Origin: Rhodohalobacter sp. SW132
GTDB lineage: Bacteria > Bacteroidota > Rhodothermia > Balneolales > Balneolaceae
Direction of reading: 5' to 3'
NCBI RefSeq assembly: GCF_003390325.1
Contig: NZ_QUOK01000003.1
Coordinates: 310,001 to 374,000 of the forward strand
DNA: 64,000 nt
The translations under genes were made by a program, and so were the position numbers. Below, in pieces: positions 11,616 through 43,801 of this stretch; the first letter of the stretch is position 1, and each line of letters opens with the position of its first letter. The notes below the pieces were generated by a model, which searched no databases, was not told where the DNA came from, and saw nothing but the letters and a program-made list of their open reading frames with translations.

Positions 11616-11620
11616 TTGCT

Positions 11621-16776: not shown

Positions 16777-16809
16777 AGGAGTGAAAGGGGAAAAGTAAAA
16801 AGTGAAAAT

Positions 16810-17163: not shown

Positions 17164-17235
17164 AAGATCGTTTATTTTGTTGTTGGTTATACATATGAGC
17201 CTATTACAACCAACCCCTTACAAAACTTTTCAAAT

Positions 17236-17317: not shown

Positions 17318-17321
17318 CACA

Positions 17322-17819: not shown

Positions 17820-18000
17820 ATTTCATTCAGATTATATTCAGTACTCAATTCAAAAAATACTGAGGCAAAATACCCAATTTATTTGATGTCAGCCTACCTG
17901 TCTGATGACGGATTGTAATTTAAAATTTAATCTATTTCACCATACTTAAATCGTCGGTTTTAATCAGGCAAATGACTACCAACTCCATCCAAAACTGATT

Positions 18001-18033
18001 TTTTTTCACTTCTCACTTTTCACTTTTCCCTCA
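18001..18033 (+). repeat. TTTTCAC/TTCTCAC repeat tract at the adaptor 3' end
   Basis: A short copy of the heptamer tract seen at 17236-17317. It overlaps the last codon region of the adaptor gene and ends in CTTTTCCC. It probably shares an origin with the other junction tracts. Confidence 0.65.
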
Positions 18034-19137: not shown

Positions 19138-19151
19138 CTTTTCTAACACAC

Positions 19152-19208
19152 CCTTTAATCCCCTCTCGGGCCACACTTGGTCCCGATTTTTTCGGGAAGG
19201 GGACTTTT
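19152..19208. repeat. Structured dispersed element, copy 2
   Basis: Outer arms of the TCCCCT/AGGGGA type enclose CCCGA and TCGGG around a T-run. The wording (CTCGGGACC-like segments, GGGGACTTTTTA at the end) resembles the element at 28132-28186 and the nearby 28240-28290 segment. It lies between the RND stop and the adaptor start codon. Confidence 0.5.
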
Positions 19209-19260
19209 TACAATTGATCATCAAAAATTTTAATCTCATAACAGCCTTCTTTTCTAAACT

Positions 19261-19295
19261 ATTTTCACGTTTCACTTCTCACTTTTCACTCCCCT
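19261..19295 (+). repeat. TTTCAC/TTCTCAC tract at the RND 3' end
   Basis: TTTTCACGTTTCACTTCTCA followed by CTTTTCACTCCCC. It matches the tracts at 17236 and 18001 and overlaps the 3' end of the permease gene. Confidence 0.6.
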
Positions 19296-24055: not shown

Positions 24056-25294
24056 CTACTCTTCTTCCATCTCAATCCTATACCGCACCACCTGCTGCAG
24101 ACCGGTTTCTTCGTCCTCTTCACGGGTGTAAAAATAATCACCTCGAATGTGTTTAAATGTACTTCCGGTGACATAAGGAGGGTTTTCCCGATCTCCCGGC
24201 CAGCGAAATTTGCCAATTAGTTCTCCATCAGGCTCAAGAACCCACCATTCGAGTTCATCTTCTTTTTCTGTAAAAGTCGAAATCCATAATCGCCCATTAT
24301 CATCAGGCCACATGAATTGCATCACTGCCCAGGATTCCGGTAATTCTACCTTTTCAGCTATATCTTTTGTCATTTCATTTGAAGAATTTCGCGCATCCTC
24401 TCTTGTTACAGGATTTTTTGAGACAGGATAATAAAACCCACCAATCACATTCCCCTCTTTATTCAGCTCACGGATTAAAAATTGATCCGAATCTGCAAAG
24501 AATATACGTCCGGACGGGGTAACGGTAATTAACGGTTTTTTCAGAAAAGGAAACTTTTTCATTATGCTGCCAACATTCGAATCTCCCCAGGTTTCCAACA
24601 TATCATCCTGTTTAAAAACTTCTTAACTCAACTCCTGATAAGCTGTATCTGCGGTGAAGTAGTGAATTGTTGCGGGAGTATCTTCAAAGGCTCGTTGTGG
24701 AGTTATATAAGCGAGAAGCCGTGTTTCGTCATCAAAAAAATAGTGTCCTAATAATCGTTTTCCTTCAATTTGTCCGCTACTGTTTAAATTATTCCGATCC
24801 ATGCTGACTGTTTCCAGTAAGTCCAATGAGTCCGTTGAGTATACCGTAATCCGTGCTAATGCTTTATCAACTACATACAACCGATTCGAACGTATGTTTA
24901 AACAACACAGACTGTTAAACTCACCTGGCCCGTTTCCCACTCTTCCAAGACTTGTTAAATACTCTCCATCAGGAGAAAACACATGGATTGTTAATATTCC
25001 CGGAGCAATATCTGTAATATAAACTCTGCCTGATTCATCCGTAATAAACCCTCTGACGCTGGCAAAGTATACATCTTCCGTATCTCTGAATTCCTGTTCT
25101 TTTATGAGCTTGATGGTATCTGCATTTTCATGATCCTCTTCAGAAAAGATCTTAATATGTTCCATTTCAAGTACATGACCCGGTACGGCAGCGTAATCAT
25201 CATTCTCATTTGTGCCGCAGCCCACTGCAACGAGGAATAGTACTACAAAAATATATTTTCTTTCTCTCCTCTCTTCGTTAAAATGATTTCTCAT
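24056..25294 (-). pseudogene. Propeller lipoprotein BP2, interrupted by one in-frame stop
   Basis: The first part (24623-25294, 223 codons) has a lipobox (AVGC, Cys26), the RVYITD blade motif and SLGRVGNGPGEF. A TAA at 24623-24625 ends it. The same frame then stays open through EVFKQDDMLETWGD to the constant C-terminal module (LEWWVLEPDGELIGKFRWPG, ETGLQQVVRYRIEME). Restoring one codon gives 413 codons, the length of intact paralogues. The most likely reading is a recent nonsense mutation. Alternatives are stop readthrough, a sequencing error, or two separately used polypeptides. A predicted promoter lies at 25362-25390. Confidence 0.85.
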
Positions 25295-25548: not shown

Positions 25549-26847
25549 CTATCTTTCAATTCGTTGGATTTTATACTTAATAATCCGGTCGATACCCTGA
25601 CGGAATTCTCTTTGATGGGTATAAAAATATCCGTTTTTGATGATGATCAGAGGCTTAGACGGTACAAATCGTCTTGATCGTTCTCCCTCTTTTTGGAAGC
25701 GGGCGATCCATTCCCCCTTTTGATTAAGAACTTGCCAGGTGAAATGCGTTTTGCTATCTGTAATGGTGGCTATCCAAAGCCTCCCTTCATCATCCAGTTC
25801 CATGGTGTGTAAGGCGGGCCACGTGTCAGGAATCTCTTCTCCTCTGAGCATTCTTCGTTCATGATCTGCAATACTGATTTGATCCAAAGAAAGATCACTT
25901 TTTGTAATTGGGTAGTATAGTGATTGGATATAATCCCCATTCGTGTCATACTCTTTAATCAAAAAGTCCTCTGTCCACGCAGTAAAAAATGTTCCCGACT
26001 GTGTAATTGACACCAGAGAACTTCGGTTAAATGGCTTTGTAATCGGAATTGCCCAGCCTTCCCGTTCAGGGAGGAAATATCGTTTATGCCTGTCTACCTC
26101 CAAAAGCCTTTCCGGGTTTATAGTGCCATCCCGTTGAAGCTTATAATAGAAAATCTGGGTACCATCACTCTCTTCATTTAAAGAGGACATACCTACCTCC
26201 AAAACCATTCCGTCATTATTTAATAATTTTAAATCTGTCCCTTTTGCAATCGCTGGCATTTGATTTATACGGGTTGCTTCTGAAAGATTAATGATCTTCT
26301 CCTCAGTTTTTTCAAAGTCGTTCAGGGAGTAAACCGCAAATTTTTGAAGTCTTGGGTCAAAAAGGATCAGTTCATCTTCCAGAACATCTATGGCACCGAG
26401 GGCTTCAAATTCACCCGGACCCTGACCATATCTGCCAATCGTTGTCAGATAGGTTCCGTCAGAATTGAAAACATACACACCGAGATGACCCGGCACACTT
26501 GAAACGACAAAGACCCTGCCAGCGTCATCCACAGCAAAATTTGAAATGTTACCGCTCATAAAAACGTCCTCACTGCTTTCAAAAACCGTTTCCTGAATCA
26601 GTTCCATAGAATCCGGGACTGCCCCTTCAAATGGATCAATAAGTGTTACATTTTCGATATTTTGAATATGTTCGGGAAGCTCCGATTCTGTGACGGGTTG
26701 ATACTCCCGGTTGCAGGAGATTGCTGATATTACCAAAATGAGTACTGCCAGGAAAGCACCGTGGTGCAAGGAAATCTCAGTGACTTTTCGTGTTTCACTT
26801 CGCATCCAATAATGTACGGCAGCAAGTTTGTATCTGTTTGGATTCAT
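25549..26847 (-). CDS. 6-bladed beta-propeller lipoprotein BP3
   Basis: A 432-aa propeller protein. Its ATG overlaps the stop of BP4 (ATGA, 26844-26847), so the two are translationally coupled; this supports the long N-terminus (lipobox ISC, Cys45), although Met15 could also serve. The core shows NFAVDDAGRVFVVS, TIGRYGQGPGEF and PDTWPALHTMELDDEGRLWI. The C-terminal module is diverged (FTWQVLNQKGEWIARFQKEG) but still ends in a YTHQRE and IIKYKIQR version. It belongs to the constant-module subgroup at its edge. Confidence 0.8.
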   Translation of the reverse strand: MNPNRYKLAAVHYWMRSETRKVTEISLHHGAFLAVLILVISAISCNREYQPVTESELPEHIQNIENVTLIDPFEGAVPDSMELIQETVFESSEDVFMSGNISNFAVDDAGRVFVVSSVPGHLGVYVFNSDGTYLTTIGRYGQGPGEFEALGAIDVLEDELILFDPRLQKFAVYSLNDFEKTEEKIINLSEATRINQMPAIAKGTDLKLLNNDGMVLEVGMSSLNEESDGTQIFYYKLQRDGTINPERLLEVDRHKRYFLPEREGWAIPITKPFNRSSLVSITQSGTFFTAWTEDFLIKEYDTNGDYIQSLYYPITKSDLSLDQISIADHERRMLRGEEIPDTWPALHTMELDDEGRLWIATITDSKTHFTWQVLNQKGEWIARFQKEGERSRRFVPSKPLIIIKNGYFYTHQREFRQGIDRIIKYKIQRIER

Positions 26848-28076
26848 CGCGATTCCCCGGATTCTATCCGATATTGCACCACCTGCTGCACGCCGGTTTC
26901 TTCATCCATTTCACGGGTGTAGATGTAACCATTTCTCACTACTTCGATAGGTATGTCGCTCGGCCATTCAAACGTAGCAATTAATTCCCCTGATACATCC
27001 AGCACCCACCATTCGTTTACATCAAGATCTTCCACTATAGTGGAAACCCATATGCGATTTTCGTCGTCCAATTTTAAAGATTGAAAAGCCGGCCAGGCAT
27101 CAGATATATCATCCCGGATTAAGTTTTTCTCTTCGACTTCTACTTCATACATAGATTCATACATAGAAAAAAAATCTTCTACATCAATCTCTGCATTCAT
27201 GAAAGGATAATAGAATGCATGTTCATATCTTCCATTTTCATTGTAGACTTTAAACAACAAATGGTTCGACCAGCCATAAACTAAATTTTTACCATTATAG
27301 TCAATATGTGCCCTGGGCTTGTAGGGTACATCCGACAAAATCAAATAATCAGAATAAAGCGCTGTTCCATCTGCGCGTAATGAGAGTACATCATGCTCTG
27401 AAAAATTGCCGGTATCGAGGCTGAAAGAAGAAGCTTCCAATGTTCGGATTTCATTATTGTCAATAGCACCTACATTTAAATCGCCAAAAAATACCAGCAA
27501 ATTACCGTCTGGCTTCTCATACAGATGGGTGGGTCCATAAAAAAGGCCTTCATGCCGGGTCCAATTTATCCAGGAGGGTTTTTCTTCCTCTGTGTCAGAA
27601 ATGGATATATAAAAATCCTCTATATCATTCAAAACATCTAAAGCAAAGGTTGAAAATTTGTTTTGCATGTAATCCAGTACATAGAGACTTTTCTGCCCGG
27701 CATGCATGAACCACAACATTTGAAACTCTCCCGGCCCTTCACCCTGCCTTCCAATGCTTTGAAGGAATTGCCCGTCCGACTTATAAATATGAATTTTATT
27801 TTCAAACCTATCTGTAATATAGACTCTTCCCCTGGTATCCACTTCAATTTGGCTGATATATCCACCCCATAAAACCTCATCATTTTCACCGAATGTAATC
27901 TCTCGCACGAATGAAAATTTCTTATAAGGTTTTGGGTCACCTTCATAAATCAAAAGGTTTTCTATTTGATCTAAATTTTCCGGCACCTCTTCAAGAGGTT
28001 CGCCGCCTGAACATCCTAATGTTATAACAAATAGAATTAATATTATTTTGGGTACCTGATTTAAATTTATATTCAT
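26844..28076 (-). CDS. 6-bladed beta-propeller lipoprotein BP4
   Basis: 410 aa, lipobox TLGC (Cys22). QIEVDTRGRVYITD and SIGRQGEGPGEF mark the second and third blades, followed by a variable middle and then the constant end: NEWWVLDVSGELIATFEWPS, YTREMDEETGVQQVVQYRIE. It is cotranscribed with BP3 through a 4-bp overlap. The spacer upstream (28077-28407) carries a three-way-junction element and should contain its promoter, which I could not identify. Confidence 0.82.
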   Translation of the reverse strand: MNINLNQVPKIILILFVITLGCSGGEPLEEVPENLDQIENLLIYEGDPKPYKKFSFVREITFGENDEVLWGGYISQIEVDTRGRVYITDRFENKIHIYKSDGQFLQSIGRQGEGPGEFQMLWFMHAGQKSLYVLDYMQNKFSTFALDVLNDIEDFYISISDTEEEKPSWINWTRHEGLFYGPTHLYEKPDGNLLVFFGDLNVGAIDNNEIRTLEASSFSLDTGNFSEHDVLSLRADGTALYSDYLILSDVPYKPRAHIDYNGKNLVYGWSNHLLFKVYNENGRYEHAFYYPFMNAEIDVEDFFSMYESMYEVEVEEKNLIRDDISDAWPAFQSLKLDDENRIWVSTIVEDLDVNEWWVLDVSGELIATFEWPSDIPIEVVRNGYIYTREMDEETGVQQVVQYRIESGESR

Positions 28077-29496: not shown

Positions 29497-29591
29497 GTAG
29501 TCTTAATCGTTTAAAAAGGATTTACGCCGCTCAATTTTAATGGAAGTCGTACGAATCTTTAAATCTTTGGGAGGCATTTAAATCTGTTAAT

Positions 29592-29655
29592 AAGTTCTCC
29601 GGTGTCATCTATAATTCACCATTCATAGATTTCAAATCTTCAACCAATGTGGTAC
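29592..29655 (-). pseudogene. Ghost of a propeller gene 3' module
   Basis: On the minus strand the 64 bp read as a decayed version of the constant module coding TIVEDFDIYEWWVLEETGEL. It keeps, for example, CCGGAGAACTT and TATGAATGGTG, and has several substitutions and an in-frame stop. No other part of the gene remains. It indicates that a further array member was deleted here. Confidence 0.6.
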
Positions 29656-29672: not shown

Positions 29673-30869
29673 TCATATGCCTCGTATCATACCAACCCTC
29701 AACACCGGGGCATCTTCTGAATGATCCAGGAAATAAAAGCGATCATTTTGATCTTTCCAAAACGGACCGATTCCGGGGCCCCGATCATCTCCATCAAACG
29801 TGAACTCATCCAACCTCCCAAGTCCCTCCAATTCATCCTCTTCATTGAAAACTTCTACAATTGTTTGTCGTTCGTCATCACGATATTGGGAACTGATATG
29901 CAGCACACGTCCGTCATTTAATCTGAAAACCCCTAAACTCTTACTCAACACTTTTCCTGAAAAAGATTCCTCTCTTGGGGCATAGACAACAATGGATATT
30001 TGACCGGCTTCATTACTTCCTTCCAGAATGGCTTCATCAGAAAGAAGGTGTCCTTCGATCTGATCTGCCTTTTTCCATTCACCATCGGTTAACGCATACT
30101 TGAAAATCCGGCCGCTGTATGTGCCGGGTACAAACCATAGAGTATCATCCTCCATCCATACCCTGCCTGTGTTCATCCCGCTGATATACATATCTGTGAA
30201 TGCAGAGTTTGCATCTATTAAGGTATCAACATGGCCAAATGAATGGCGAGGACTTGAAAACCGTCGGTCGAAAATGTGAAAAAACGAGGATTGTCTACTC
30301 TTTTCTCCATTCTCTACAGGTATACGGCTGGAAGCTTTATGTAAAAACAGATATTGCTCATTAGTTAATCTATGCATTGAAACCGCAGGAATCATTTGAC
30401 TCCCATCCGTTACAATTGTGCGAAGATATTCTCCCGATGTTAAAAACTGAACAATCCGGTTATTCCCTCTGTCAAATACCGACAGTTCATCATCAAACAG
30501 ATCTAATGACAATATATTTGTAAACTCTCCCGGTCCGTTGCCTTGTCTGCCAATGTTATAGAGATAGTTTCCATTTTCATCAAATACCCTGATCGTCATT
30601 GCTGAACGATCCGGCAGGTAAATATTCCCCTGATCATCCGTTCGGATTTGTCCTTTACCATCTTCCCGAACCCTTGAATCCGGCAGAATCAAAAAATCAT
30701 TATACTCTATTGCTTTTTCTGATATCGTATACGACTCTTCAAAGGTCAATTCCAGATTGAATTCCGGGTTCTGATCAAATGGCATCTCATTTCCGCTACA
30801 CCCTGCAATAGCTATAATAATAACTACATACAATATTGATGCGTATACATTATGAGATCTATCCATCAT
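29673..30869 (-). CDS. 6-bladed beta-propeller lipoprotein BP6
   Basis: 398 aa from the chosen start. The frame extends upstream to 31091, but that part overlaps the BP7 tail. I chose the ATG at 30869 because a good Shine-Dalgarno (AGGGG, 5 nt before) precedes it and MMDRSHNVYASILYVV leads straight into lipobox IAGC (Cys24); ATG 30902 is the alternative. It carries LPDRSAMTIRVF, NIGRQGNGPGEF and a C-terminus unlike the constant module (FYFLDHSEDAPVLRVGMIRG). It follows BP7 by 34 bp and is probably cotranscribed. Confidence 0.78.
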   Translation of the reverse strand: MMDRSHNVYASILYVVIIIAIAGCSGNEMPFDQNPEFNLELTFEESYTISEKAIEYNDFLILPDSRVREDGKGQIRTDDQGNIYLPDRSAMTIRVFDENGNYLYNIGRQGNGPGEFTNILSLDLFDDELSVFDRGNNRIVQFLTSGEYLRTIVTDGSQMIPAVSMHRLTNEQYLFLHKASSRIPVENGEKSRQSSFFHIFDRRFSSPRHSFGHVDTLIDANSAFTDMYISGMNTGRVWMEDDTLWFVPGTYSGRIFKYALTDGEWKKADQIEGHLLSDEAILEGSNEAGQISIVVYAPREESFSGKVLSKSLGVFRLNDGRVLHISSQYRDDERQTIVEVFNEEDELEGLGRLDEFTFDGDDRGPGIGPFWKDQNDRFYFLDHSEDAPVLRVGMIRGI

Positions 30870-30903
30870 AACTACCCCTAACTCAATTTCTGAATTTTTC
30901 ATT

Positions 30904-32137
30904 TTAATTAGCTTCCATCTCCACCCGGTATCGCACCACCTGCTCCAAACCTGTTTCTTCATCGGTTTCGTGGGTGTACATGTAGCCGTTTCGGACAACC
31001 TCAATCGGTTCATTCCGAGGCCATTCGAATTTGGTGATGAGTTCTCCGGTTTCTTCCAAAACCCACCATTCGTAGACGTCAAAATCCTCAACTATAGTCG
31101 AGATCCACAGGCGGTTTTCGTCGTCTGCAAGCAGGTCGTTTAGTGCAGGCCAGGTATCAGGAATATCTGCATTTCGAACAAATCGCAGGTCCGGCGTCTC
31201 ATAGCCGATGTCATGCTCTTTAATTAAATCCTCTCTGCGCAAAGTGATTTTTTCGTAAGGATAAAAAAAAAGCTTCTGAATAATCGCCTCCAGGGCTGTA
31301 TTTTTTTATGAAAAACAGATGAGAATTAGCAGAAAAAATAGATCCTTCATGTGATAGTTCAATTAAAGGTTCTCCCATATATGGTAATGTAACCGAAAAG
31401 CGGTTGTTTTGAAATGAAATAAACTCATGAGGCCTGCCTTCCTGATTTAATATCAAATCAGAAATAATCTCACCTCTTTGATTAACCAGGTAATATGAAA
31501 ATGAGTTGTTTTCACCTTTTGAGCTCTCTATTTCCAAAATTGAGTTGGCAAACTTTATCAAAAAATTACCGCCATTTACTGGATAGTAATCAGTTGGCCC
31601 TTTGGTTCTCAGCTCTTCAATGTGACGCCAATTTTGTGGATTCAAATCAACACTCTGAGTATGAGAAAGTGATTCTAATGAGAATATGATAATTCGTAGC
31701 TGTAAAGAATCGTATACATAGATATTTTTTGAATCGATTTTCAAATTACCCATACTGAGAAATTCCCCCGGCCCTCTGCCTCTTCTTCCGATTGATGTTA
31801 TATAACCGCCATCTGATTGAAAAGCGTGAACTGAAAAACTTTCTCGATCTGCAATGAATACTCTTCCCTCATTATCTACCCCAATTGCTCCGTTGCCACT
31901 CACCGTTACATGAACCTCTGTGGAGCTGCCAAAGTACCCATGTTCAATAAATCGCAATGAGAAGGAAGGTTTGGAATCAGGTGACCAGATTTTCAAATTT
32001 TCCAAACCCTGTAAATGTTCGGGGATCTCTCCATTATTTATCATTTCCTGAAATTCAGAAAGTTGAGTTCTTTCTACTTCATTACAACTTGATATAAAAA
32101 CAATAAGTAAGAAAAAACATGCAATGTAAATCTTCAT
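30904..32137 (-). pseudogene. Propeller lipoprotein BP7, frameshifted at an A9 tract
   Basis: From ATG 32137 (lipobox ISSC, Cys18; an upstream extension to 32236 is less likely) the frame encodes GRVFIADRESFSVHAF and SIGRRGRGPGEF, then reaches nine T's on the coding strand (A9 at 31263-31271) and derails after GGDYSEAFF, stopping at 31220. One base fewer gives AFFYPYEKITLRREDLIKEH and continues into the intact constant module (VYEWWVLEETGELITKFEWP) ending at 30904. The restored gene is about 410 codons. It may be a real frameshift, a slippage-corrected gene, or an assembly error. Confidence 0.85.
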
Positions 32138-32237
32138 TTCTTTAGTTCTATAGTAAATATATGTAGCTAATCGCTTATTGAAAGCAGACGTTGAAAAAAA
32201 AGAGATACACTTATTTTTTCTAACCAAAAAAGTCAAT

Positions 32238-33491
32238 TCAATCTATCTCCACCCGATACCGCACCACTTGCTCCAAACCGGTCTCTTCATCAATTTGGCG
32301 GGTGTACATCTTGCCGTTCTTTACCACTTCTATAGGTTCATTCCGCGGCCATTCGAATTTGGTGATGAGTTCTCCGGTTTCTTCCAAAACCCACCATTCG
32401 TAGATGTCAAAATCCTCAACTATGGCAGACACCCAAAGCTGGTCCTCATCATCCATAAACATCCCCGAAAGAGCCGGCCAGGTCTCTGGTAAATCGGTAT
32501 TTTCAATCATATTTTCAAACGTTTCTCTGTCAAATCGATTTTCGGGATGGTCTAATGCTTCATTACTTGTAAGCCTGGTTTTCTGAAACGGGTGATAAAA
32601 TGCCTGCAAATAATTTCCTTCCGAGTCATGTGTTTGAATTAAAAACTCATCCGTACGTGCTGAAAAAATGTGGTCGTCCCCCGAAACGGCTACCAAAGGT
32701 TTCCCATGAAATGGTGAAGCCATTCCGATGGTTGGCTGACCCGGTCCTTCACTGATTAGGTACCTGCTATCTTCTAATTCAAAAATTTTATCCGTTATGA
32801 AACGTCCTTCACTGTCTATATTAAAAAAGGGAATTTTTTTACCTGTTGGTTTATCCAGTCTGAACGGCTGACCAAAACTCATCAGAAAGGTGCCGTCTTG
32901 CCTTACAAAGAAATGCCTGAGAAATGAATCTTTCATTTCCTCGATATCGGGTTTCTCATCCTGCCTGAGTAGAATGGTCCGGTTGAGAGCAAGTGAATCA
33001 AGTGAAAAAACAGTAATTCGTTGCAAATTGGCATCACTTGCATATAGCATGTTTGAAAAGGTTTTCAGGCTGGAAATATTTCGAAATTCACCAGGCCCTT
33101 CCCCTTCTCTTCCAATACTTTTCAAGTAATGCCCATCATCTCGAAACACATGAATACGATTCTGTTTTAAGTCACTGAGGTATACCTTGTTCTGTCCGTC
33201 AACCACAAATCTTCCGGGTTGTCCTATTAATACATCTTCAGAATCTCCAAATTTCAACGTCTGTTGAAAGTTAATATCGAATTCCGGCTCAGGTTCTGAA
33301 TCGTATACAATAAGGTTTTCAAGATCTCTTGCATGTTCGGGAAGGTTATCAGCCTGATTCTGATGCGAACAGGAACCGCTGAAAAGAAGTAATACGAGAA
33401 GAACCCCGCAACTGATGATTTGAAACAAACGAAGGTTGGCGGGACCGTAGTCCATTAGGTTGTACTGTTCATAAAAAGGAAGTTTTTTCAT
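32238..33491 (-). CDS. 6-bladed beta-propeller lipoprotein BP8
   Basis: 417 aa with a long N-region and lipobox SGSC (Cys41); Met13 is a possible alternative start. It shows KVYLSDLKQNRIHVF, SIGREGEGPGEF and DLPETWPALSGMFMDDEDQL, then the constant module IYEWWVLEETGELITKFEWP and ETGLEQVVRYRVE. It starts 14 bp after the BP9 stop, so BP9-BP8 form an operon. Its module DNA is nearly identical to that of BP7 and BP14 over about 58 bp. Confidence 0.83.
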   Translation of the reverse strand: MKKLPFYEQYNLMDYGPANLRLFQIISCGVLLVLLLFSGSCSHQNQADNLPEHARDLENLIVYDSEPEPEFDINFQQTLKFGDSEDVLIGQPGRFVVDGQNKVYLSDLKQNRIHVFRDDGHYLKSIGREGEGPGEFRNISSLKTFSNMLYASDANLQRITVFSLDSLALNRTILLRQDEKPDIEEMKDSFLRHFFVRQDGTFLMSFGQPFRLDKPTGKKIPFFNIDSEGRFITDKIFELEDSRYLISEGPGQPTIGMASPFHGKPLVAVSGDDHIFSARTDEFLIQTHDSEGNYLQAFYHPFQKTRLTSNEALDHPENRFDRETFENMIENTDLPETWPALSGMFMDDEDQLWVSAIVEDFDIYEWWVLEETGELITKFEWPRNEPIEVVKNGKMYTRQIDEETGLEQVVRYRVEID

Positions 33492-33505
33492 AGGGTGAAC
33501 ACGTT

Positions 33506-34684
33506 CTACATTTCTTCCATCTCTATCTGATACCTCACCACCTGCTGCAAACCGGTTTCCTCATCCGTTTCGCGGGTGTACATCATCCCGTTTCTCACAA
33601 CCTCAATCGGTTCATCCCGCGGCCATTCGAATGTGGTGATGAGTTCTCCGGTCTCTTCTAAAACCCACCATTCGTAGACGTCAAAATCCTCCACAATAGT
33701 CGAGATCCACAGTCGGTTTTCGTCGTCAATGTGCATTTCATCCAATACCGGTGCAGTTTCAGGGATCTCTGCAGATCGAGCGGCTTCCCTAATGAGCTCC
33801 GGACCCGCTTCCGGGAATGCGTTCTCCGGATCCAGTGAAACACGGGGTACATTATAATAAAATGCGTCCATATACTCTCCGGCCGGACTATATTTTTTGA
33901 TCAGAAAATCCTCAGACCAGGCCAGATAGATATGATCATCATCTGACTGATCCGTCAGCAAAGCTCCGTAAAACTTCACAGGCATTCCCACACTTCGTCC
34001 TCCTAATGGCAGGATAACCTGGTAGGATGATGTACGCTCGAACAGTTTTTCTGAATCAACATTCCCGCTCTCATCTAATAGATACGACAAAGTCCGGGTT
34101 TCAATTTTATCCCAGTCATTGACCCCTTCTGCTGTATTCGAGGCTAAAAACAGCATCAGGAACGAACCGTCATTCCTGGGGTAGAACTTGTTCAAATAAG
34201 ATCCCCGCAGTTCCTGTATTTCGTTTCTATTTCCGGCAAGTGAAATCATCTGGTTGTAAGAGAGAGTTTCAGTATCAAAAACAACAGCCCGCTGCTGATT
34301 ACGATCAAAAGTAAACAGGCGGTTTTGAGATGTTTGAATACCAGATAATTCAATAAACTCACCAGGCCCTTCACCACGGCGCCCCAAACGGGTTAAAAAC
34401 TGTCCATCTGGCGCATATACCTTGATTTTTAACTGATCTGAATCAGCGATGTAAACCCGGCCATTCTCATTAACAGCCACTTCTCCCATTCGCCCAATCA
34501 ATACCTCGCCGGTATCACCGTATTCGACATCCTTTTGAAAGGATATGATTTCGTTAGGTTTCCTATCCGCCGAGTAGACGGTGAGATTTTCCAATTCCTG
34601 AAGATAATCCGGTAGGGGTTCTGTTTCTTGCTGAGAACATCCATAAAAAACGATGGGTAAGAGAAGAAAAATGAATTTATGCAT
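33506..34684 (-). CDS. 6-bladed beta-propeller lipoprotein BP9
   Basis: 392 aa, lipobox VFYGC (Cys16). The conserved start is LPDYLQELENLTVYSADRKP, followed by GEVAVNENGRVYIADSDQ and RLGRRGEGPGEF. The constant end reads VYEWWVLEETGELITTFEWP, YTRETDEETGLQQVVRYQIE. It is the first gene of a two-gene unit with BP8. A ghost of another paralogue tail lies 51-101 bp upstream of its start. Confidence 0.85.
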   Translation of the reverse strand: MHKFIFLLLPIVFYGCSQQETEPLPDYLQELENLTVYSADRKPNEIISFQKDVEYGDTGEVLIGRMGEVAVNENGRVYIADSDQLKIKVYAPDGQFLTRLGRRGEGPGEFIELSGIQTSQNRLFTFDRNQQRAVVFDTETLSYNQMISLAGNRNEIQELRGSYLNKFYPRNDGSFLMLFLASNTAEGVNDWDKIETRTLSYLLDESGNVDSEKLFERTSSYQVILPLGGRSVGMPVKFYGALLTDQSDDDHIYLAWSEDFLIKKYSPAGEYMDAFYYNVPRVSLDPENAFPEAGPELIREAARSAEIPETAPVLDEMHIDDENRLWISTIVEDFDVYEWWVLEETGELITTFEWPRDEPIEVVRNGMMYTRETDEETGLQQVVRYQIEMEEM

Positions 34685-34734
34685 GAAAAGTCAGATTCGG
34701 TATTGATTGAAATTTTTATCGTTCAACATGTTCA

Positions 34735-34785
34735 CTCATCTCCCATATTGATCCGGGATCTCACCACCTGCTGCAGCCCGGTTTG
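34735..34785 (-). pseudogene. Ghost of a propeller gene tail
   Basis: On the minus strand the 51 bp encode GLQQVVRSRINMGDE, matching the very end of the constant module (GLQQVVRYRIEME in paralogues). The rest of the gene is missing. It suggests deletion of a paralogue between BP9 and BP10. Confidence 0.7.
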
Positions 34786-34835
34786 GCATAGATAAACAAC
34801 AATAAATAAAAATGAAACGTATGTTTTGTCATCTA

Positions 34836-35939
34836 TCAATCAGGCAATTCAACCCGAAAAAGATATTCCCAGCTTCCAATAGTTATCCTATCCTTACGAT
34901 CTGTTTGAAAAATATCTGATATCCATAATGGTTCATCCTGCATGTAGTGGTGAAACCTGTATCTTCCGGCTACTTGATAGTCCCCATTTTGTAATGGAGT
35001 AAGGCGTATTAACTCCCTGCGCACGGATATGAAAATGTCCCCATTATCCATCAACTTGTATTCCGTAATTGGCCTGACTCCACCAAAACCTTCGTTAGTC
35101 AGATGTTTGAAAAAGTCCATCGGTGGAATATCCATCTCTTCAAATTTAGAATATTCTACAATTATGGTAGATGAGTGATTAAAATCTTTATCAAACAAGA
35201 TTAACCACGGCAGGAAGTAGTAATTTGCAACAGTACTATTATTCTGATTAATCACCACCCGCGGGGTATTATATAGCTGCGGCTGATAACCGGAGGGAAC
35301 AATTCGGGGCAAAATCGTTGTGAGTGTATCAGTCAACGAATCCATGGAAAGTACTGCAATTCGTCCCTGATCAGGCTTTACAGGGGATATACCGCTGCTT
35401 TTGTTATTTTCCAGAAACACAAACTCATCATTCAAATCCAAAAAGCTGGAAATCTCAACAGGAAAGTCAACCGAAACTAAATCATGCGTGTAGCGATTAA
35501 TACGGGCATTTATTGCATCGGAAACCCAGATGTATTGATCATTGGCTTTTATATTTCTGACCAAACCGAGTTCCCCGGGCCCACGTCCTTCCCTGGTTAA
35601 CGGGCCTTCAATGGTTCCGTTCTTATCAATCTTAAAAATTGCATTAGTCACAGCATCATAGACATAGAACTGTTCATCATTATACGTGAATATTGTAAGA
35701 TGACCGAGTAATGGTTCCTCTTCTTTTACTTCACGATGGAGGTGATAAATAATATCTTCCTCACTTAAAACAATTTCCTGCAGCTCAACTTCATCAAGAT
35801 TTATATACTGATACGGGGCAGAACTGACGAACTCATTCAGTACAACGGAGACAGTTTCCGGTGGTTCTCTATCATCGACCTCCTGACAACCGATAAAAAT
35901 CAGGTAAATTACGATGAATCCGACAGGATAGTGTTTCAT
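34836..35939 (-). CDS. 6-bladed beta-propeller lipoprotein BP10
   Basis: 367 aa, lipobox FIGC (Cys18). It has FYVYDAVTNAIFKIDKNGTI and the signature TREGRGPGEL, then INRYTHDLVSVDFPVEI. It lacks the constant C-terminal module and ends in the variable RKDRITIGSWEYLFRVELPD, so it belongs to the divergent subgroup. Spacers of about 150 bp on both sides suggest its own transcription unit. Confidence 0.78.
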   Translation of the reverse strand: MKHYPVGFIVIYLIFIGCQEVDDREPPETVSVVLNEFVSSAPYQYINLDEVELQEIVLSEEDIIYHLHREVKEEEPLLGHLTIFTYNDEQFYVYDAVTNAIFKIDKNGTIEGPLTREGRGPGELGLVRNIKANDQYIWVSDAINARINRYTHDLVSVDFPVEISSFLDLNDEFVFLENNKSSGISPVKPDQGRIAVLSMDSLTDTLTTILPRIVPSGYQPQLYNTPRVVINQNNSTVANYYFLPWLILFDKDFNHSSTIIVEYSKFEEMDIPPMDFFKHLTNEGFGGVRPITEYKLMDNGDIFISVRRELIRLTPLQNGDYQVAGRYRFHHYMQDEPLWISDIFQTDRKDRITIGSWEYLFRVELPD

Positions 35940-36087
35940 GAGAAGTTCTTTATTAATCGATTAAACAGTTAAGAGGTTAGATAAATTGGAATCGCGACAT
36001 GAGGCTATGTTCTGATTAATTTTTAAGGTAATTGCCTATCACAAAAATAATTTTCCGGTTTACATCCGTTTTAACCAGATCTTATAA

Positions 36088-37170
36088 TCATTCATCAATT
36101 TGATAAAGACCCGCTTTCCACAGATCAGGATCATCGGACCGGTATTTAAACAGAATTTGGTCACCGGAAATAAATTCGACGGATTCCGCTTCTTCCGGGA
36201 TCTCAAGAGATCCTATGTATTCCGCATTCGGCGAAAAGATGTCGAATCGCAACTGTTCATTCTGCGGCACATTCACCAGGGCCCACAAACGTCCGGCATG
36301 ATCGGAAAAATAATCTACAAATCGCCGCTTGTGAGTTGGCGGCTCTTCATCTAAAGCTACCCCAGTCATTTCTGATGCCCGAACCCTTTCATCCCGCCAT
36401 TCTTCTTGTTCAGATTCAGTCAGACGCACCGCAGGCACTCCGGGTCGGGTGAACAATGTCGTTTCCTGAGTTGAGGGGTCCATCTTGTAAATTCTGTAGC
36501 TTGTATCCGGAGGCGATGTGAAAAAAGTAAAATCATCCATAAACCGAAATTCGCAAAACGTACATGAGATCTGATCCGGCGGCAAATCTTGTAATTCCAG
36601 TTCAAGGTGAAAAAATTGCTCTTTTGATCCTGATACAGGATCGTATCTCCTCATTATAATATCACCTGGAATGCTGTCACCGCGACTTTCAGCACCGACC
36701 CGAAAAGGATTATTCGTAATAATCAAACCTTCCGATATCCAGCTGAGCCTTGTGTGCCAGCCGTTATCCAAATCAAAAGAGACGACAGTATCCTCAACCA
36801 CATCCTGGATCGTAATGCGTGCATTCGTCACATCTGCCACAGCTACCCTTCCGTCTGGATTTACGGCCGCATAAGTAATCGTGGAGTATTCGCCGGGACC
36901 GCGACCCATACCGCCAAATGTTTGGATCAGATCACCATTTGCATCGAAATGGTTGATGGTATTCAGCGATCTATCAATGACGATCAGGCTTCCGTCAGCG
37001 AGTACACCAGGGTAAGACGGGTTCGGAATGGCCTCCGGGCTGTTGATCTCCCACGATGTAACTTCTCTCAATGAAAGCGGAGCTTCTGAATCTTGGGCCC
37101 TTTCTCCTTCACTTTTTGCACAAGCTGCAACAAACGACAACAGTAATATTAACCTAAAGATTTTGAACAT
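36088..37170 (-). CDS. 6-bladed beta-propeller lipoprotein BP11
   Basis: 360 aa, lipobox FVAAC (Cys17). Blade motifs are LIVIDRSLNTINHFDANGDL and TFGGMGRGPGEY, then RVAVADVTNARITIQ. A CTFCEF Cys pair in the middle is unusual for the array, whose members are otherwise nearly Cys-free after the lipobox; it could form a disulfide. It lacks the constant C-terminal module. Spacers of about 150-170 bp on both sides suggest independent transcription. Confidence 0.78.
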   Translation of the reverse strand: MFKIFRLILLLSFVAACAKSEGERAQDSEAPLSLREVTSWEINSPEAIPNPSYPGVLADGSLIVIDRSLNTINHFDANGDLIQTFGGMGRGPGEYSTITYAAVNPDGRVAVADVTNARITIQDVVEDTVVSFDLDNGWHTRLSWISEGLIITNNPFRVGAESRGDSIPGDIIMRRYDPVSGSKEQFFHLELELQDLPPDQISCTFCEFRFMDDFTFFTSPPDTSYRIYKMDPSTQETTLFTRPGVPAVRLTESEQEEWRDERVRASEMTGVALDEEPPTHKRRFVDYFSDHAGRLWALVNVPQNEQLRFDIFSPNAEYIGSLEIPEEAESVEFISGDQILFKYRSDDPDLWKAGLYQIDE

Positions 37171-37340
37171 GTTAGTAATTGATAATCAATTTTTAATGAT
37201 AATTAAGAAGAAAGTAAAATAATTTGATCACACCATTCTTAATTCTCAATTTCTTTTATGGCATGTACAATGTGGAAAAACGATACACTCACAACATGCC
37301 TCTCTACAACCCATCCGCATCGAGGTCCCATGGAGATTTT

Positions 37341-38390
37341 TTATTGAAGATTATTTTCATAAATCACTAAATGTGTATCATCATCAATCATATGAAGCAA
37401 GTAGATGAATTGGTCATCCACGGCCATGCTACCTGTTGCACGATATGGGATTTCATACGTATAGAGATAATCACCTGTCTCCTGACTGTAGATATCCAAT
37501 TTGGGATATTCATGTTCATCTCCCGAAACTCCGCCTTGTAGTATCAGCCAATAATCGTTGTGCAGGGCAGATCCGATAGCAGAGAAATATCCATGTTCTG
37601 AATATCTAAAAACCCGGTTTTCTCCGCTTTCGAACGTTATATAATTCAAGTCGGCTGGAAAATCGTCAATCGACGTAACTGAAAAAACTTGACGATAGTC
37701 CGAATCCCATTTTCTAAGGATATGTTCAGCAAAACCGGCGTAATAAAAATTGTCATTTTTATCGATTTCGATACTTCCGGGATACATGAGGGTATGAAAA
37801 TGATCCCGGTCAATCTTGCCAAATTCAGAAAGAACCTCTCCCTCTTGATTCATTTCATGAAACATATAATTCTTCCCGGTGCTGAAAGGGTCAGACAACG
37901 TGATGATGTTTCCATTGCTTAAAAAACGAATTCTGCTTGGTTGAAGCTCTTCGGATATAAATTCATGGATGAGCGTCCCTTTTATATCTCTAAACTGAAA
38001 TTTTGATAAACTGCGGTCATAAAAAACAAATGTCTCGTTTGAGACGGATCCAAGAGATAAACTTGTCAGTTCTTCCGGGCCTTCTCCTTCTGGAATGGAA
38101 AAAGACAGTTCGATCTCAAAAGAACCAGTATTGATTCCAATAACTTTAAATTGTGAGCGGTCTGCAATAAATAGTGTATTTCCATACACTATGAGACCGG
38201 ACGCGTTGTATAATTTAAATTGATCGTATAATGAGATTTGTTCTGCAATTTCCAGTACTCCTCTGATTTCCCGCTCTGATGACTCTTGTGGATCTTTATC
38301 TTCAAAAAAATGTTCTTTATCACTTTCAGAACAATGATTTAAGCAAGTTGCTAAAATCAGCAGGCAAAATATTTTCAACGAATTATTCAT
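37341..38390 (-). CDS. 6-bladed beta-propeller lipoprotein BP12
   Basis: 349 aa. I chose ATG 38390 over the upstream alternative at 38420 because MNNSLKIFCLLILATCLNHC is a complete lipoprotein signal (Cys20). It has LFIADRSQFKVIGINTGSFE and a diverged signature PEGEGPEEL. It has no constant module; the C-terminus is MAVDDQFIYLLHMIDDDTHL-like. It is the most diverged member by eye, closest to the BF3164-like type. Confidence 0.72.
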   Translation of the reverse strand: MNNSLKIFCLLILATCLNHCSESDKEHFFEDKDPQESSEREIRGVLEIAEQISLYDQFKLYNASGLIVYGNTLFIADRSQFKVIGINTGSFEIELSFSIPEGEGPEELTSLSLGSVSNETFVFYDRSLSKFQFRDIKGTLIHEFISEELQPSRIRFLSNGNIITLSDPFSTGKNYMFHEMNQEGEVLSEFGKIDRDHFHTLMYPGSIEIDKNDNFYYAGFAEHILRKWDSDYRQVFSVTSIDDFPADLNYITFESGENRVFRYSEHGYFSAIGSALHNDYWLILQGGVSGDEHEYPKLDIYSQETGDYLYTYEIPYRATGSMAVDDQFIYLLHMIDDDTHLVIYENNLQ

Positions 38391-38524
38391 AATATTTTCC
38401 TTTATAAAATATAAAAACATGGAACTATACCATTCCTACCCAACAAATCTCCGACTACCTTTAAATTTACAGAATCACCTGTCGGTGAGGGTTTTCAAAG
38501 TCACGAAATAGGACATAGTACATT

Positions 38525-39751
38525 CTACTCCATCTCCACCCGATACCTCACCACCTGAACCAGACCGGTTTCTTCATCGGTTTCGCGGGTGTAGATCTTC
38601 CCGTCTCTCACAACTTCAATCGGTTCATCCCGTGGCCCCTGAAATGTGGTAATGAGTTCTCCGGACTCTTCTAAAATCCACCATTCATAGACATCGAAAT
38701 TTTCAACGATTGTGGCAATCCATATTCGCCCTTCATCGTCCACCAGCATGCGATCCATTGCCGGCCAGGTTTCCGGAATTTCATTTTGGCTGACTAAATC
38801 AGCAAGGTATGGAGTCACCTGAGAGCTGATTGCATCCTCCCGGCTCATCTCAAGATTTTCAAACGGTTGGTATATCGCACTTTGATAATCACCGTCAGTA
38901 GAGTACTTCCTGATCAGTATGTGATCTGACATTGCAAAGTAAATACTCCCATCATCCGATGCCCCAAAAATTGGTTTAGTGAATATCTGGGGACTCGGTG
39001 CCGCCCGTGTATACTGCCCTGTAAATCGGGACTGCTCGGGCGAAGATTTTCCGGTAATTTCGTAGAGTGGTACCGGATCTATGAGCGGCCTGGTAAGTCT
39101 GGCATCATCTCTCATCAAATAGAAATAGTATTGTTTGTCCTCCTTCAACTCACCGGCGTCTTCCGGAATCGTTGGAATATGATTTAACAGGATTACAAGA
39201 AACGTCTCTTCACCCAGGATTTGGATTTGGTGAATATGGGTATCAAATATTCCATCAAAACTGCCTTTATTCGTTGGATATACATTAATTGTACGAACCA
39301 GCTCAAGATCTGCTATTGAATATTGGGTCACTCTTGACAACCTTATATCTAATAAGAAGAGTTGATCCATTTTAATCACGGGAAAAGGACCGGCTGCATA
39401 TTCTCCGGGCCCTTCACCACTTCTCCCTACCGATGTGAAATATTCCCCACCGGGTTCAAAAATATGTAATGTATTCTGTTGAACATCACTCATATAAATC
39501 CGTCCCAAATCATCGACTGCAAACCCGCCCATGCGTCCAATCGGTTGTTCAGGGCTGTCGCCTATTGAGATTTCACGTTCAAAGTTGATCTCAGCATTAG
39601 GAGAATCTGCTCCTGAGAATATGGTAAGATTTTCGATCTCATCGAGATGATCAGGAACGGTCGCTTGCCGGGATTCTTTATTGCAGGCAAATGCAAAAGC
39701 TGCAAGTGCTACAATTAACATCCGGTACAAGGATTTACATGATATTGTCAT
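38525..39751 (-). CDS. 6-bladed beta-propeller lipoprotein BP13
   Basis: 408 aa, lipobox AFAC (Cys23). Its N-terminus VPDHLDEIENLTIFSGADSP and blade GFAVDDLGRIYMSDVQQN are family-typical, followed by SVGRSGEGPGEY. The constant module is present: VYEWWILEESGELITTFQGP, YTRETDEETGLVQVVRYRVE. Its start is 22 bp after the BP14 stop, so BP14-BP13 are an operon. Confidence 0.85.
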   Translation of the reverse strand: MTISCKSLYRMLIVALAAFAFACNKESRQATVPDHLDEIENLTIFSGADSPNAEINFEREISIGDSPEQPIGRMGGFAVDDLGRIYMSDVQQNTLHIFEPGGEYFTSVGRSGEGPGEYAAGPFPVIKMDQLFLLDIRLSRVTQYSIADLELVRTINVYPTNKGSFDGIFDTHIHQIQILGEETFLVILLNHIPTIPEDAGELKEDKQYYFYLMRDDARLTRPLIDPVPLYEITGKSSPEQSRFTGQYTRAAPSPQIFTKPIFGASDDGSIYFAMSDHILIRKYSTDGDYQSAIYQPFENLEMSREDAISSQVTPYLADLVSQNEIPETWPAMDRMLVDDEGRIWIATIVENFDVYEWWILEESGELITTFQGPRDEPIEVVRDGKIYTRETDEETGLVQVVRYRVEME

Positions 39752-39773
39752 GGTTCAAGTAGTTTTGCTCTGA

Positions 39774-40922
39774 TTATTCCATCTCAATCCTGTACCGCAC
39801 CACCTGTTGCAGTCCTGTTTCTTCATCGGTTTCGCGGGTGTACATCTTGCCGTTTCGGACAACCTCAATCGGTTCATTCCGGGGCCATTCGAATTTGGTG
39901 ATGAGTTCTCCGGTTTCTTCTAAAACCCACCATTCGTAGATATCAAAATCCTCAACAATAGTTGAGATCCACAGGCGATTTTTATCGTCAATGAGCATCT
40001 CATCCAGCGCCGGCCAGGTTTCAGGAAAATCGGCATTTTGTATGCCCCGCCGATAGCGTTCGTTGTACCTGCCAAGTACCTCGCTGCGAATCAGTTCCTC
40101 ATTTTCAAAAGGATAATAAAATGCCCGTCTATACTCACCATTGTAATTATATTTTTTTACAAAAAAATCATCATTCCATGCCAAATACATTCCGCTCGTA
40201 TTTGATACCGCCACGAGTGGTTTCCGGGTAAATGGCAGCACCATTGCGAAGGCAAACCCATCTGTATTATCTGAAAAAATATCAGCATCCCGGTGCTCCA
40301 GGATTTTAGAAGCAGTAATTTCACCGGTATGATCCAGCAAAGAATAGTGACTGATCCGCTCACTCCGGCTAATCATTCTGCTGAACTGTAAAAGCATGGA
40401 TTGATCGTTTCTTATAAAAATATCAGCCACTCTTGCCGCTTCCATATCATCCACACCCGGCTCCATCAGTTTCGAATCCAGCAGATCAAAACTATCCGCA
40501 GAAAACCATTGAATCAGTTGCCGGTTTGCATCCAGGACTACAACCTGGTCAGAAATGGTTCTTAATGACTTAATGTTGCGGAACTCCCCGGGGCCTTCTC
40601 CATCTTCGCCTATATTTCCCAGGTAATTTCCATTCGGTTCGTATACTTTGACATCCAATTCTTCTCCATCGGCTATATATACCCGGCCGGTATGATCTAC
40701 AGTTACAGCGTTTAACCACCCAATGAAAACTTCGTCGGTGTCGCCAAAATTTTGCTCTCTCTTCAGTTGTATACTGTAGGCTGGTTCAGCATCCGCAGAA
40801 TATACGGTCAGATTCTCAAGTTCCCCGAGATGTTCCGGTATTTCTGAAGAATCCGGGTTTGAACAACCGGAGATCAGGAATTGAAGGAGAATTAAGACAA
40901 CTATTTTGAGAAAGAAGTTCAT
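39774..40922 (-). CDS. 6-bladed beta-propeller lipoprotein BP14
   Basis: 382 aa, lipobox ISGC (Cys20). It shows AVTVDHTGRVYIADGEELDV, NIGEDGEGPGEF and the full constant end IYEWWVLEETGELITKFEWP, YTRETDEETGLQQVVRYRIE. Its module DNA matches that of BP7 with only 2 differences over about 78 bp, although the rest of the two genes is highly diverged. It is the first gene of the BP14-BP13 unit. Confidence 0.85.
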   Translation of the reverse strand: MNFFLKIVVLILLQFLISGCSNPDSSEIPEHLGELENLTVYSADAEPAYSIQLKREQNFGDTDEVFIGWLNAVTVDHTGRVYIADGEELDVKVYEPNGNYLGNIGEDGEGPGEFRNIKSLRTISDQVVVLDANRQLIQWFSADSFDLLDSKLMEPGVDDMEAARVADIFIRNDQSMLLQFSRMISRSERISHYSLLDHTGEITASKILEHRDADIFSDNTDGFAFAMVLPFTRKPLVAVSNTSGMYLAWNDDFFVKKYNYNGEYRRAFYYPFENEELIRSEVLGRYNERYRRGIQNADFPETWPALDEMLIDDKNRLWISTIVEDFDIYEWWVLEETGELITKFEWPRNEPIEVVRNGKMYTRETDEETGLQQVVRYRIEME

Positions 40923-41067: not shown

Positions 41068-42321
41068 CTATTCCATCTCAATCCGGTATCGCACCACCCG
41101 CTGCTGACCTGTTGTTTCCATTGTTTCACGTGCATATACATAGTCATTTTTTATTTTTTCTATAGATCGGTTTCCCGGCCACTTGAATGTTGCAATGAGT
41201 TCTCCGGTATCTTGCAATACCCACCATTCATGTATCAACTCTTCACTTTTAGGAATTGTAGCTACCCACAGCCGGTTTTCATCATCAGTCACTATATCAC
41301 TCAATGCAGGCCATTTTTCGGGGAGCTCTGCATGTAGCAATAAATTTGTATTTATTTCATCATCTTGTGCAATCAAGTCGATAATCTCTTCCCGGTCTAT
41401 TGACTTTTTTTCCATTGGGATATAAAAAGCCCTGATATAATCCCCATTCTTATTATGCAATTTAACTAATGGATCTTCGCTATTGGCTGTAAAAATAGTT
41501 CCTTCATTAGAAATAGAGATCATAGGCTGTTGCAGAAACGGAACAGGACTAAGGTTGAATAAGTGGTTGCCATCAACAACGGCTGTTATATTTTCCATAT
41601 CTTTCAATTCATCTATCATTTCGGATCTGATTTTCCCCTCCCGATCCACAACGTAGTACCTGACAAGTAACTCTTGATCTAAATTATAATGTTCTGTCCC
41701 GTAGTTGGCATTTTTCATCTCATCCTTATATCTCACTATGAATAAATCATCTGAAATCAGGGAAACAGGACGAGATGGCAACCCCCTTAACTCTTCACGA
41801 TCAGGCGCACGATTTGTATATACATTCCGGACATCAATTACATCGAGGGAATCAAGAGAAAAAAAAGTAGATCGAAATTGAAAATAGTCGAATGCGAAGA
41901 GTTGATCGGAATGTATTTTAATATCAAAAATACCCTCAAATTCACCCGGCCCACGGCCTTCACCACCTAATCTTCGCAGATATGCACCGGTAGAATCAAA
42001 AACATGGATCACTTTTTCGTAGTTATCCCCAACATATATTTTGCCGGTATCATCAACCTCAAGCCCTGCGAAAAAATCGGACCCTCCAAATGCAAATCCG
42101 CCACTCGTGCTATGGTACCAGGAACCAGTAGCATCACTGTCATCTATCACTAAGTCACGAATGAATGTGATGGTTGACTCCGGTGAACTGTTTTTTTCTA
42201 TAACAATTACATTTTGAAGATCTGGTGGAGCACCGTCCACAGCGGGATCATTTTCCGGCTCTGAAGAGCACGAAATGAATAGAACCAGTAACGCAAAAAG
42301 TATATATCTGCAGTACATCAT
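41068..42321 (-). CDS. 6-bladed beta-propeller lipoprotein BP15
   Basis: 417 aa from ATG 42321. The frame is open to a TTG at 42354, but MMYCRYILFALLVLFISC forms a clean lipoprotein signal (Cys18). It contains GLEVDDTGKIYVGDNYEKVI, RLGGEGRGPGEF and a diverged constant module (HEWWVLQDTGELIATFKWPG, YARETMETTGQQRVVRYRIE). It is separated from BP16 by the 42.4-43.8 kb toxin-antitoxin island, which appears to have inserted into the array. Confidence 0.82.
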   Translation of the reverse strand: MMYCRYILFALLVLFISCSSEPENDPAVDGAPPDLQNVIVIEKNSSPESTITFIRDLVIDDSDATGSWYHSTSGGFAFGGSDFFAGLEVDDTGKIYVGDNYEKVIHVFDSTGAYLRRLGGEGRGPGEFEGIFDIKIHSDQLFAFDYFQFRSTFFSLDSLDVIDVRNVYTNRAPDREELRGLPSRPVSLISDDLFIVRYKDEMKNANYGTEHYNLDQELLVRYYVVDREGKIRSEMIDELKDMENITAVVDGNHLFNLSPVPFLQQPMISISNEGTIFTANSEDPLVKLHNKNGDYIRAFYIPMEKKSIDREEIIDLIAQDDEINTNLLLHAELPEKWPALSDIVTDDENRLWVATIPKSEELIHEWWVLQDTGELIATFKWPGNRSIEKIKNDYVYARETMETTGQQRVVRYRIEME

Positions 42322-42838
42322 CTGAGATAGATTGTTTGTGGGTTTTTGATGCAATTCATTAAGTTTTAACTACGGAGATCGCAGGGGGACACGGAGGGAG
42401 TGGTTTTCGAAATTAGTCTACAGCAATTTTAGCCAGACCTATTAAGGAGCCCCCAAAATGCGGGCACGCGTGTAGGTCTATGTTTTTCTCTTTGTTCGCT
42501 GTGCAATCGATGTGACGCTGAGGTCATACCGAGGCAGCGCATTAATAATGATACGCCCGAACTTCCCCTTCTTCAGTAAAAACAAAAATTCTTTTCTCGT
42601 TTCAATTCCTTCAATCTTGCCAAGTTTTTTCAGCTTACTTACTATTTCAGGCGTCTGTTAATCAAAATTGTATCAAACCTCAATAGTACGACTATAATAG
42701 TTTATTATTAGAGGATGGGCAAATTTTAATTTTCACGGATATAGTTTCATATAAACTTTAAGTCATGAAATAACTCTGGCAGATTTCAATGATATAAAGC
42801 TATTTATAAATTCCTTACTCCTATGATACATTCTCAGT
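42322..42838. other. Degraded non-coding stretch at the edge of the TA island
   Basis: About 500 bp without an intact gene. It contains an ATG-less frame (42478-42657, minus) and AT-rich sequence. I see no promoter I would defend. Confidence 0.5.
42478..42657 (-). pseudogene. C-terminal fragment of an unrecognised protein
   Basis: 59 codons open between two stops without a start codon, reading TPEIVSKLKKLGKIEGIETR and ending in YDLSVTSIAQRTKRKT before TAG. The composition is protein-like (many charged residues, GKFGRIIINALPRYD), so it is probably the remnant of a real gene. I do not recognise the family. It lies in a decayed island with toxin-antitoxin genes. Confidence 0.4.
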
Positions 42839-43253: not shown

Positions 43254-43511
43254 ATGAAAACAGAACTTGTTACAACACTTAAACGTCAGGCAACAAAGCT
43301 CTTAAAAGAACTCCGAGAGGAAAAAGAACCGGTACTCATCACAGAGCACGGAAAACCTTCTGCTTACCTGGTTGACGTAGAACATTTTGAACACATTCAA
43401 AAGAGATTAAAACTGCTGGAAGGCCTGGCCCGGGGTGAAAAAGCCATTCTTGAAGATCGGGTTGTATCGCACGCTGATGCCAAAAAGCGCATGGCGCGAT
43501 GGCTCGAATAG
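43254..43511 (+). CDS. Phd/YefM-type antitoxin
   Basis: An 85-aa antitoxin. The N-terminal part LKELREEKEPVLITEHGKPS is the classic Phd/YefM DNA-binding fold, followed by AYLVDVEHFEHIQKRLKLLE and a C-terminal helix that would wrap the toxin. The last 13 bp overlap the start of the downstream toxin, typical of coupled pairs. The complex should autorepress its promoter, expected just upstream of 43254. Confidence 0.88.
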   Translation: MKTELVTTLKRQATKLLKELREEKEPVLITEHGKPSAYLVDVEHFEHIQKRLKLLEGLARGEKAILEDRVVSHADAKKRMARWLE

Positions 43512-43801
43512 TCTGGACCGAACCTGCTTTACAGGAGCTGGATGAAATTGCCGATTATATTTCATTAGATAATTCAATTGCAGCAAAAAAGTTGGTTCGC
43601 GAAGTTTTCAAACGGGTTGATCATTTAGCTCATCATCCCAAAAGCGGTAAGCTTGTGGAAGAATTTGAAGCAACGATTTATAGAGAAATCGTAAACCCAC
43701 CTTGCAGAATTTTTTATCGGCTGGCAGGTAAAATTGTCTACATTATCCATGTGATCAGGGAAGAACAGTTTCTTCACATAGATATTTTAAAGTCGCGATA
43801 A
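43499..43801 (+). CDS. RelE/ParE-family toxin
   Basis: A 100-aa toxin of the RelE/ParE superfamily: MARIVWTEPALQELDEIADY, then HHPKSGKLVEEF, NPPCRIFYRLAGKIVYIIHV and a C-terminal LHIDILKSR. It pairs with the Phd-type antitoxin with a 13-bp overlap. RelE members cleave ribosome-bound mRNA and ParE members inhibit gyrase; the sequence alone does not separate the two here. The pair interrupts the propeller array between BP15 and BP16. Confidence 0.87.
   Translation: MARIVWTEPALQELDEIADYISLDNSIAAKKLVREVFKRVDHLAHHPKSGKLVEEFEATIYREIVNPPCRIFYRLAGKIVYIIHVIREEQFLHIDILKSR

Follow-up and report, generated by a model that had tools for sequence, protein, structure and literature searches.

Shared gene ends in an array of diverged propeller lipoprotein genes of Balneolaceae point to ectopic recombination among paralogues

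Segmental gene conversion and the concerted evolution of bacterial paralogues are described as rare in prokaryotes (PMC6053082) and as acting at antigen loci of Mycobacterium tuberculosis (PMC13061034, PMC12046097). The gene array analysed here resembles these systems in that paralogues of one genome share segments that are more alike than the divergence of the whole genes would permit, and the boundaries of these segments are mosaic. It differs from them in two ways: the homogenised segments are confined to the two ends of very diverged genes (mostly 30–65% identical in amino acids), and body-less stumps of the gene tail have been left behind.

A second point of comparison is cassette antigenic variation, as in vlsE, pilE and msp2 (reviewed in PMC4534519), which likewise combines constant ends, a variable centre and recombination among copies; the vlsE product is, moreover, a surface lipoprotein, as the array products are predicted to be. 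However, we did not find in the array the single expression locus with silent, incomplete donors that characterises such systems – most members are complete open reading frames (ORFs), each having a start and a lipobox of its own – and the array is not known to have a host-immunity context or to switch within a strain. By domain content, its closest relatives are the PF17170/DUF5128 and TolB_like propeller lipoproteins, with which it shares matches above the Pfam cut-off (in most members tested) and a predicted propeller fold. Our literature search returned no paper on DUF5128 and none on the topic for propellers of Balneola or Balneolaceae. To our knowledge, environmental bacteria have yielded few documented examples of segment-limited concerted evolution. 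The present one, found repeatedly within a single bacterial family and in a large family of lipoproteins, provides a testable case of ordinary homologous recombination reshuffling modular surface repertoires.

The window – the whole stretch of 64,000 nucleotides that was analysed – corresponds to positions 310001–374000 of contig C3 in a 5.08 Mb genome (G000). Between 22.6 and 46.6 kb it contains an island of low GC content (approximately 0.36–0.42, vs 0.44–0.54 in most flanking bins) with some 17 minus-strand genes, mostly propeller lipoproteins by Pfam or alignment. PF17170 or TolB_like matched eight of the ten array genes scanned: PF17170 scored above its gathering cut-off of 22.9 in genes 39774 (31 bits), 38525 (39.2), 29673 (54.6) and 22620 (90.3), genes being named here by their first coordinate, and TolB_like matched 28408 and 44053, while the profile scan of 37341 and 45364 returned no PF17170 match. 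A lipobox cysteine, C20, is invariant in an alignment of 11 sequences read by eye, indicating a lipoprotein signal. The array is one of six-bladed β-propeller lipoproteins of the PF17170/DUF5128-like kind. No orthologous array was found in the three genomes of the same genus that were searched, and the named relatives that we did find are metagenome assemblies of Balneolaceae. No TonB-dependent transporter adjoining the array was recognised in the ORF translations. Beside the array lies a small gene pair (43254–43801) that by eye resembles a toxin–antitoxin system, in which a ParE/RelE-like protein comes after a Phd/YefM-like antitoxin, and four genes for RND-type efflux pumps (5133–22362), which served as negative controls, adjoin it as well. 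The features on which the argument draws are the following.

22620–46578, minus strand: AT-rich island with the propeller lipoprotein array, from GC content and PF17170/TolB_like matches
24056–24286, minus strand: tail of BP2 (gene 24056–25294), matching at protein level, with a weak DNA excess
25549–25794, minus strand: loosely related tail of BP3 (gene 25549–26847)
26844–27068, minus strand: tail of BP4 (gene 26844–28076), similar mostly at protein level
29573–29652, minus strand: orphan stump from the module's 5' half (nhmmer E=5.5e-11; 55% identical by tblastn)
30904–31174, minus strand: tail of BP7, with a tract common to 39774, 32238 and 33506
32238–32502, minus strand: tail of BP8 (gene 32238–33491), from blastn and tract tests
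33506–33769, minus strand: tail of BP9 (gene 33506–34684), a mosaic with a BP7/BP14-like 5' half and a BP13-like 3' half
34735–34785, minus strand: orphan stump from the module's 3' end (nhmmer E=5e-6; 71% identical by tblastn)
38525–38782, minus strand: tail of BP13 (gene 38525–39751), sharing a tract with BP9
39774–40038, minus strand: tail of BP14 (gene 39774–40922), from tract tests, blastn and predicted fold
41068–41333, minus strand: loosely related tail of BP15 (gene 41068–42354), which has near-orthologues in genomes G077 and G085

A constant C-terminal module, proposed for nine genes in a sequence-only reading of this DNA, is indeed present at the minus-strand 3' ends of 24056, 25549 (loosely), 26844, 30904, 32238, 33506, 38525, 39774 and 41068. 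That the module is shared at the level of DNA, as the same reading held, stands firmly for five of them (30904, 32238, 33506, 38525 and 39774, the core genes below). The genes 24056, 25549, 26844 and 41068 show little or no DNA excess (tail z between -0.6 and about 2.9), so that their similarity is mostly one of protein. The near-identity of the BP7 and BP14 tails in otherwise diverged genes was also correctly seen: only two of 90 bp differ from TAC GAA TGG TGG to CGA AAC GGC, and blastn aligns 30913–31174 with 39777–40038 at 87% over 262 bp, whereas the two bodies are just 31% identical in amino acids. The BP8 tail aligns with 39778–40039 at 80% over 262 bp. Its sequence tracks those of BP7 and BP14 up to the codons CGG-AAT-GAA and then diverges – one mosaic boundary within the tail – and another is found in BP9, which matches BP13 over the 3' half.

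An AlphaFold2 model of the BP14 protein (mean pLDDT 86, pTM 0.83) is all-beta, with six sheets that are mostly four-stranded by strand order, and its best Foldseek matches are NHL propellers (E down to 8e-13); other neighbours include the exported Bacteroides protein BF0058 (4raa) and BtuG-like cobalamin-binding lipoproteins (8bmz, 8bai), which for a ligand-binding role of the propellers offer a lead only. In this model, going by the list of strands rather than by contacts, the tail would form the outer strands of blade 5 and the ring-closing blade 6, probably completed by the N-terminal strand 51–59.

The central test concerns synonymous sites, whose divergence in tail and body we compared along the lines that the sequence-only reading had suggested. 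At positions of a codon alignment where both genes have the same amino acid, the share of identical codons in the five core genes is 61–87% in tails and 34–48% in bodies, with approximately 40% expected from codon usage. Tail counts such as 32/43, 31/42, 39/45 and 32/41 compare with an expectation of about 16–18 and exceed it by z 2.9–6.7 under the codon usage of the bodies and 2.7–6.5 under native codon usage, which rules out codon bias as the cause in either form. Across seven pairs of window genes, tract dS is 0.07–0.34, estimated from only 15–33 synonymous sites per tract, and body dS ranges from 2.6 to saturation; the module is thus far from being as diverged at synonymous sites as the rest of the genes.

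In a maximum-segment test with matches permuted strictly within amino-acid classes, the strongest pair is BP7/BP14 (39/45 tail codons identical, tract dS 0.12, p=5e-5), followed by BP8/BP14 (p=2.5e-4) and BP9/BP13 (32/39 synonymous codons identical, tract dS 0.34, p=7.5e-4), with three further pairs at around 0.0017; for BP8, the tracts with BP7, BP14 and BP9 gave p=0.0018, 0.00025 and 0.0016, respectively, at dS 0.07–0.23. After Bonferroni correction over all pairs, single-pair values other than that of the strongest pair are marginal, and triplet tests of the 3SEQ kind on tails, which carry no weight in the argument, are likewise borderline after correction (best p=3e-4 among 167). In the aggregate, p fell below 0.005 in 16 of 390 within-genome pairs vs three of 1200 between-genome pairs, although within-genome pairs are not mutually independent, so that the count by genome weighs more than the count by pair. 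The four RND pump paralogues of the window gave no significant pair in the same test. As judged from these codon alignments, the synonymous sites in the last 40–60 codons of the five genes trace back to a far more recent common ancestor than body sites do.

The pattern extends beyond the window. When arrays from about 30 related genomes were compared, the 16 significant tracts fell into seven genomes, nine of them in tails (G000, G069, G066, G041 and G085), seven in heads (G069, G066, G004 and G080) and none in gene middles. Ascertainment from conserved ends was considered as a source of this distribution and rejected: a converted middle would stand out as near-identical, and none was found. 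In G069, a repeated block common to gene pairs (260 bp, 86.5%) spans the tail, the spacer and the head of the next gene, and a tail relic fused to the same head lies upstream of the array's first gene. In G077, a tail block that extends into non-coding DNA beyond the stop codon is present in three copies (85–88% over 287–345 bp), two of them without a body. These three copies, with their non-coding 3' flank, lie at L078:1-4808 (G077:C252), on a contig of only 6.3 kb. In the G077 and G069 blocks, similarity therefore reaches beyond protein-coding constraint; the tracts in the window itself stop at the stop codon or a few bases from it.

Of the two stumps in the window, the one at 29573–29652 lies 21 nt past the stop codon of propeller gene 29673–30878, and the one at 34735–34785 follows that of propeller gene 34836–35939 at a distance of 51 nt; neither gene has this tail itself. 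Orphan tails were also checked in G085, G077, G041, G046 and G069, and several, in the window and in relatives together, follow at a distance of 21–125 nt a propeller gene that lacks this tail; in G066, a shorter fragment (L069:1723-1788) is a less secure case.

Tracts restricted to gene ends throughout the family, together with body-less stumps, suggest that ectopic recombination has occurred repeatedly, its breakpoints lying in conserved ends. We therefore regard the array, with good though not complete confidence, as part of a birth-and-death family whose members appear to recombine ectopically, the breakpoints concentrating in the conserved ends of the genes; ectopic recombination at gene ends as such is well supported. 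It also agrees with trees of 96 genes of the tail type: the tree of tail DNA requires 64 changes of genome label vs 76–81 in the five shuffles listed, and the body tree 76 vs 78–81, so that bodies scarcely group by genome, and the tails nearest to those of 32238, 33506 and 39774 belong to the same genome. On the other side, a clade of the five bodies is not rejected with significance in an approximately unbiased (AU) test (p=0.09). The proposal of conversion or recombination at the 3' ends holds insofar as tract dS is low and the tails are mosaics, but the exchange may be one-way conversion or just as well body replacement or unequal crossing-over, these with breakpoints in the tail, and the 3' end is not the only site, as in relatives the heads of genes are affected too.

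Mechanistically, array members would recombine ectopically with each other and probably also with imported homologous DNA, RecA-type homologous recombination presumably using the tail – or, in some genomes, the tail–spacer–head junction – as the homologous stretch. Tails might thereby be copied in one direction, the bodies upstream of them might be replaced or lost, or both might happen. Selection on the protein would keep the tail constant by virtue of its forming the ring-closing end of the propeller, and the bodies may remain different either through a divergence that already prevents recombination or through an advantage of being different. A diversifying function, as the selected role of the exchange, is a hypothesis.

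A variant that overlaps with recombination at gene ends is body replacement, in which horizontally acquired, AT-rich bodies recombine at resident tails of native GC content. It is a serious candidate, to which we assign somewhat less than an even chance, and it draws on composition, nearest neighbours and signs of transfer. There is a break in composition at the tail, which likewise fits ectopic recombination at gene ends in general: GC3 of the five core tails is 0.53–0.62, as in twelve other window genes (0.51–0.63), and that of their bodies is 0.31–0.44, tail GC3 exceeding body GC3 throughout the family. The nearest neighbours of bodies in the trees are mostly genes of other genomes. Whole genes probably move between genera, as suggested by the high codon identity of bodies to relatives in other genera – 0.82–0.83 for 41068 (G077, G085) and 0.69 for 25549 (G066), whose relative in another genus is 80% identical, vs 0.37–0.49 in orthologue controls from two other genes – and the transfer of 41068–42354 and 25549–26847 seems to have been recent. 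The position of orphan tails closely downstream of propeller genes without this tail would also follow. Body replacement alone, however, cannot make the tails of two loci alike, for which tail copying or duplication is still needed. The rise in GC3, for its part, could also reflect GC-biased repair during conversion. Genes whose tail is strongly matched by another in their own genome show the larger amino-acid-adjusted GC3 excess (0.114 vs 0.040, p=2e-4), a result compatible with such repair and just as much with foreign bodies on resident tails. Whole-gene trees of this propeller family mix two histories and should be read with caution.

Much less probable is a constraint on the DNA itself – such as an RNA structure, a site that regulates the following gene or a strong local codon preference – that slows synonymous change without any exchange. 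Such a constraint would account for the raised GC3 of tails across the family and for the finding that tails from different genomes and genera are also above chance in codon identity (0.53–0.62 at >70% amino-acid identity), from which it follows that part of the excess could stem from DNA constraint or from old transfer between genera. Yet at equal protein identity the tails of one genome are more alike than those of different genomes (0.73 vs 0.62 at >80% amino-acid identity), the excess is confined to particular pairs and changes partner from one sub-segment to the next in a mosaic, and in some genomes it is the heads and not the tails that are affected.

Purifying selection on the protein alone, with the tail as a conserved interface and the likeness of DNA as a by-product, is very improbable as a general account. 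The tail is conserved as protein in other genera, and four of the nine tail genes have a weak synonymous excess or none, but tract dS far below the saturated body dS is more than such selection can produce and rules it out for the five core genes; codon identity above the expectation from codon usage and the continuation of similarity past the stop codon in G077 argue in the same direction. Assembly chimaerism among repeats, the least credible reading, could cite two broken genes – BP7, split by a frameshift into ORFs 31220–32236 and 30904–31242, and BP2 (24056–25294), interrupted by an in-frame TAA at 24623–24625, each either a broken gene or a sequencing or assembly error – but the tail differences lie at scattered sites, the contig measures 534 kb and the pattern recurs in other assemblies.

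Beyond ectopic recombination at gene ends, one may speculate – and we consider this rather unlikely – that Balneolaceae diversify their surface propeller lipoproteins by means of junction blocks (tail, spacer and next head) through which variable bodies would be exchanged among array members and brought in from other genera, with neither a dedicated recombinase nor a single expression site.

As a separate observation in the related arrays, perfect palindromes of 36 and 34 bp occur closely upstream of propeller genes at L086:4313-4348 and L082:4162-4195 (genomes G041 and G103).
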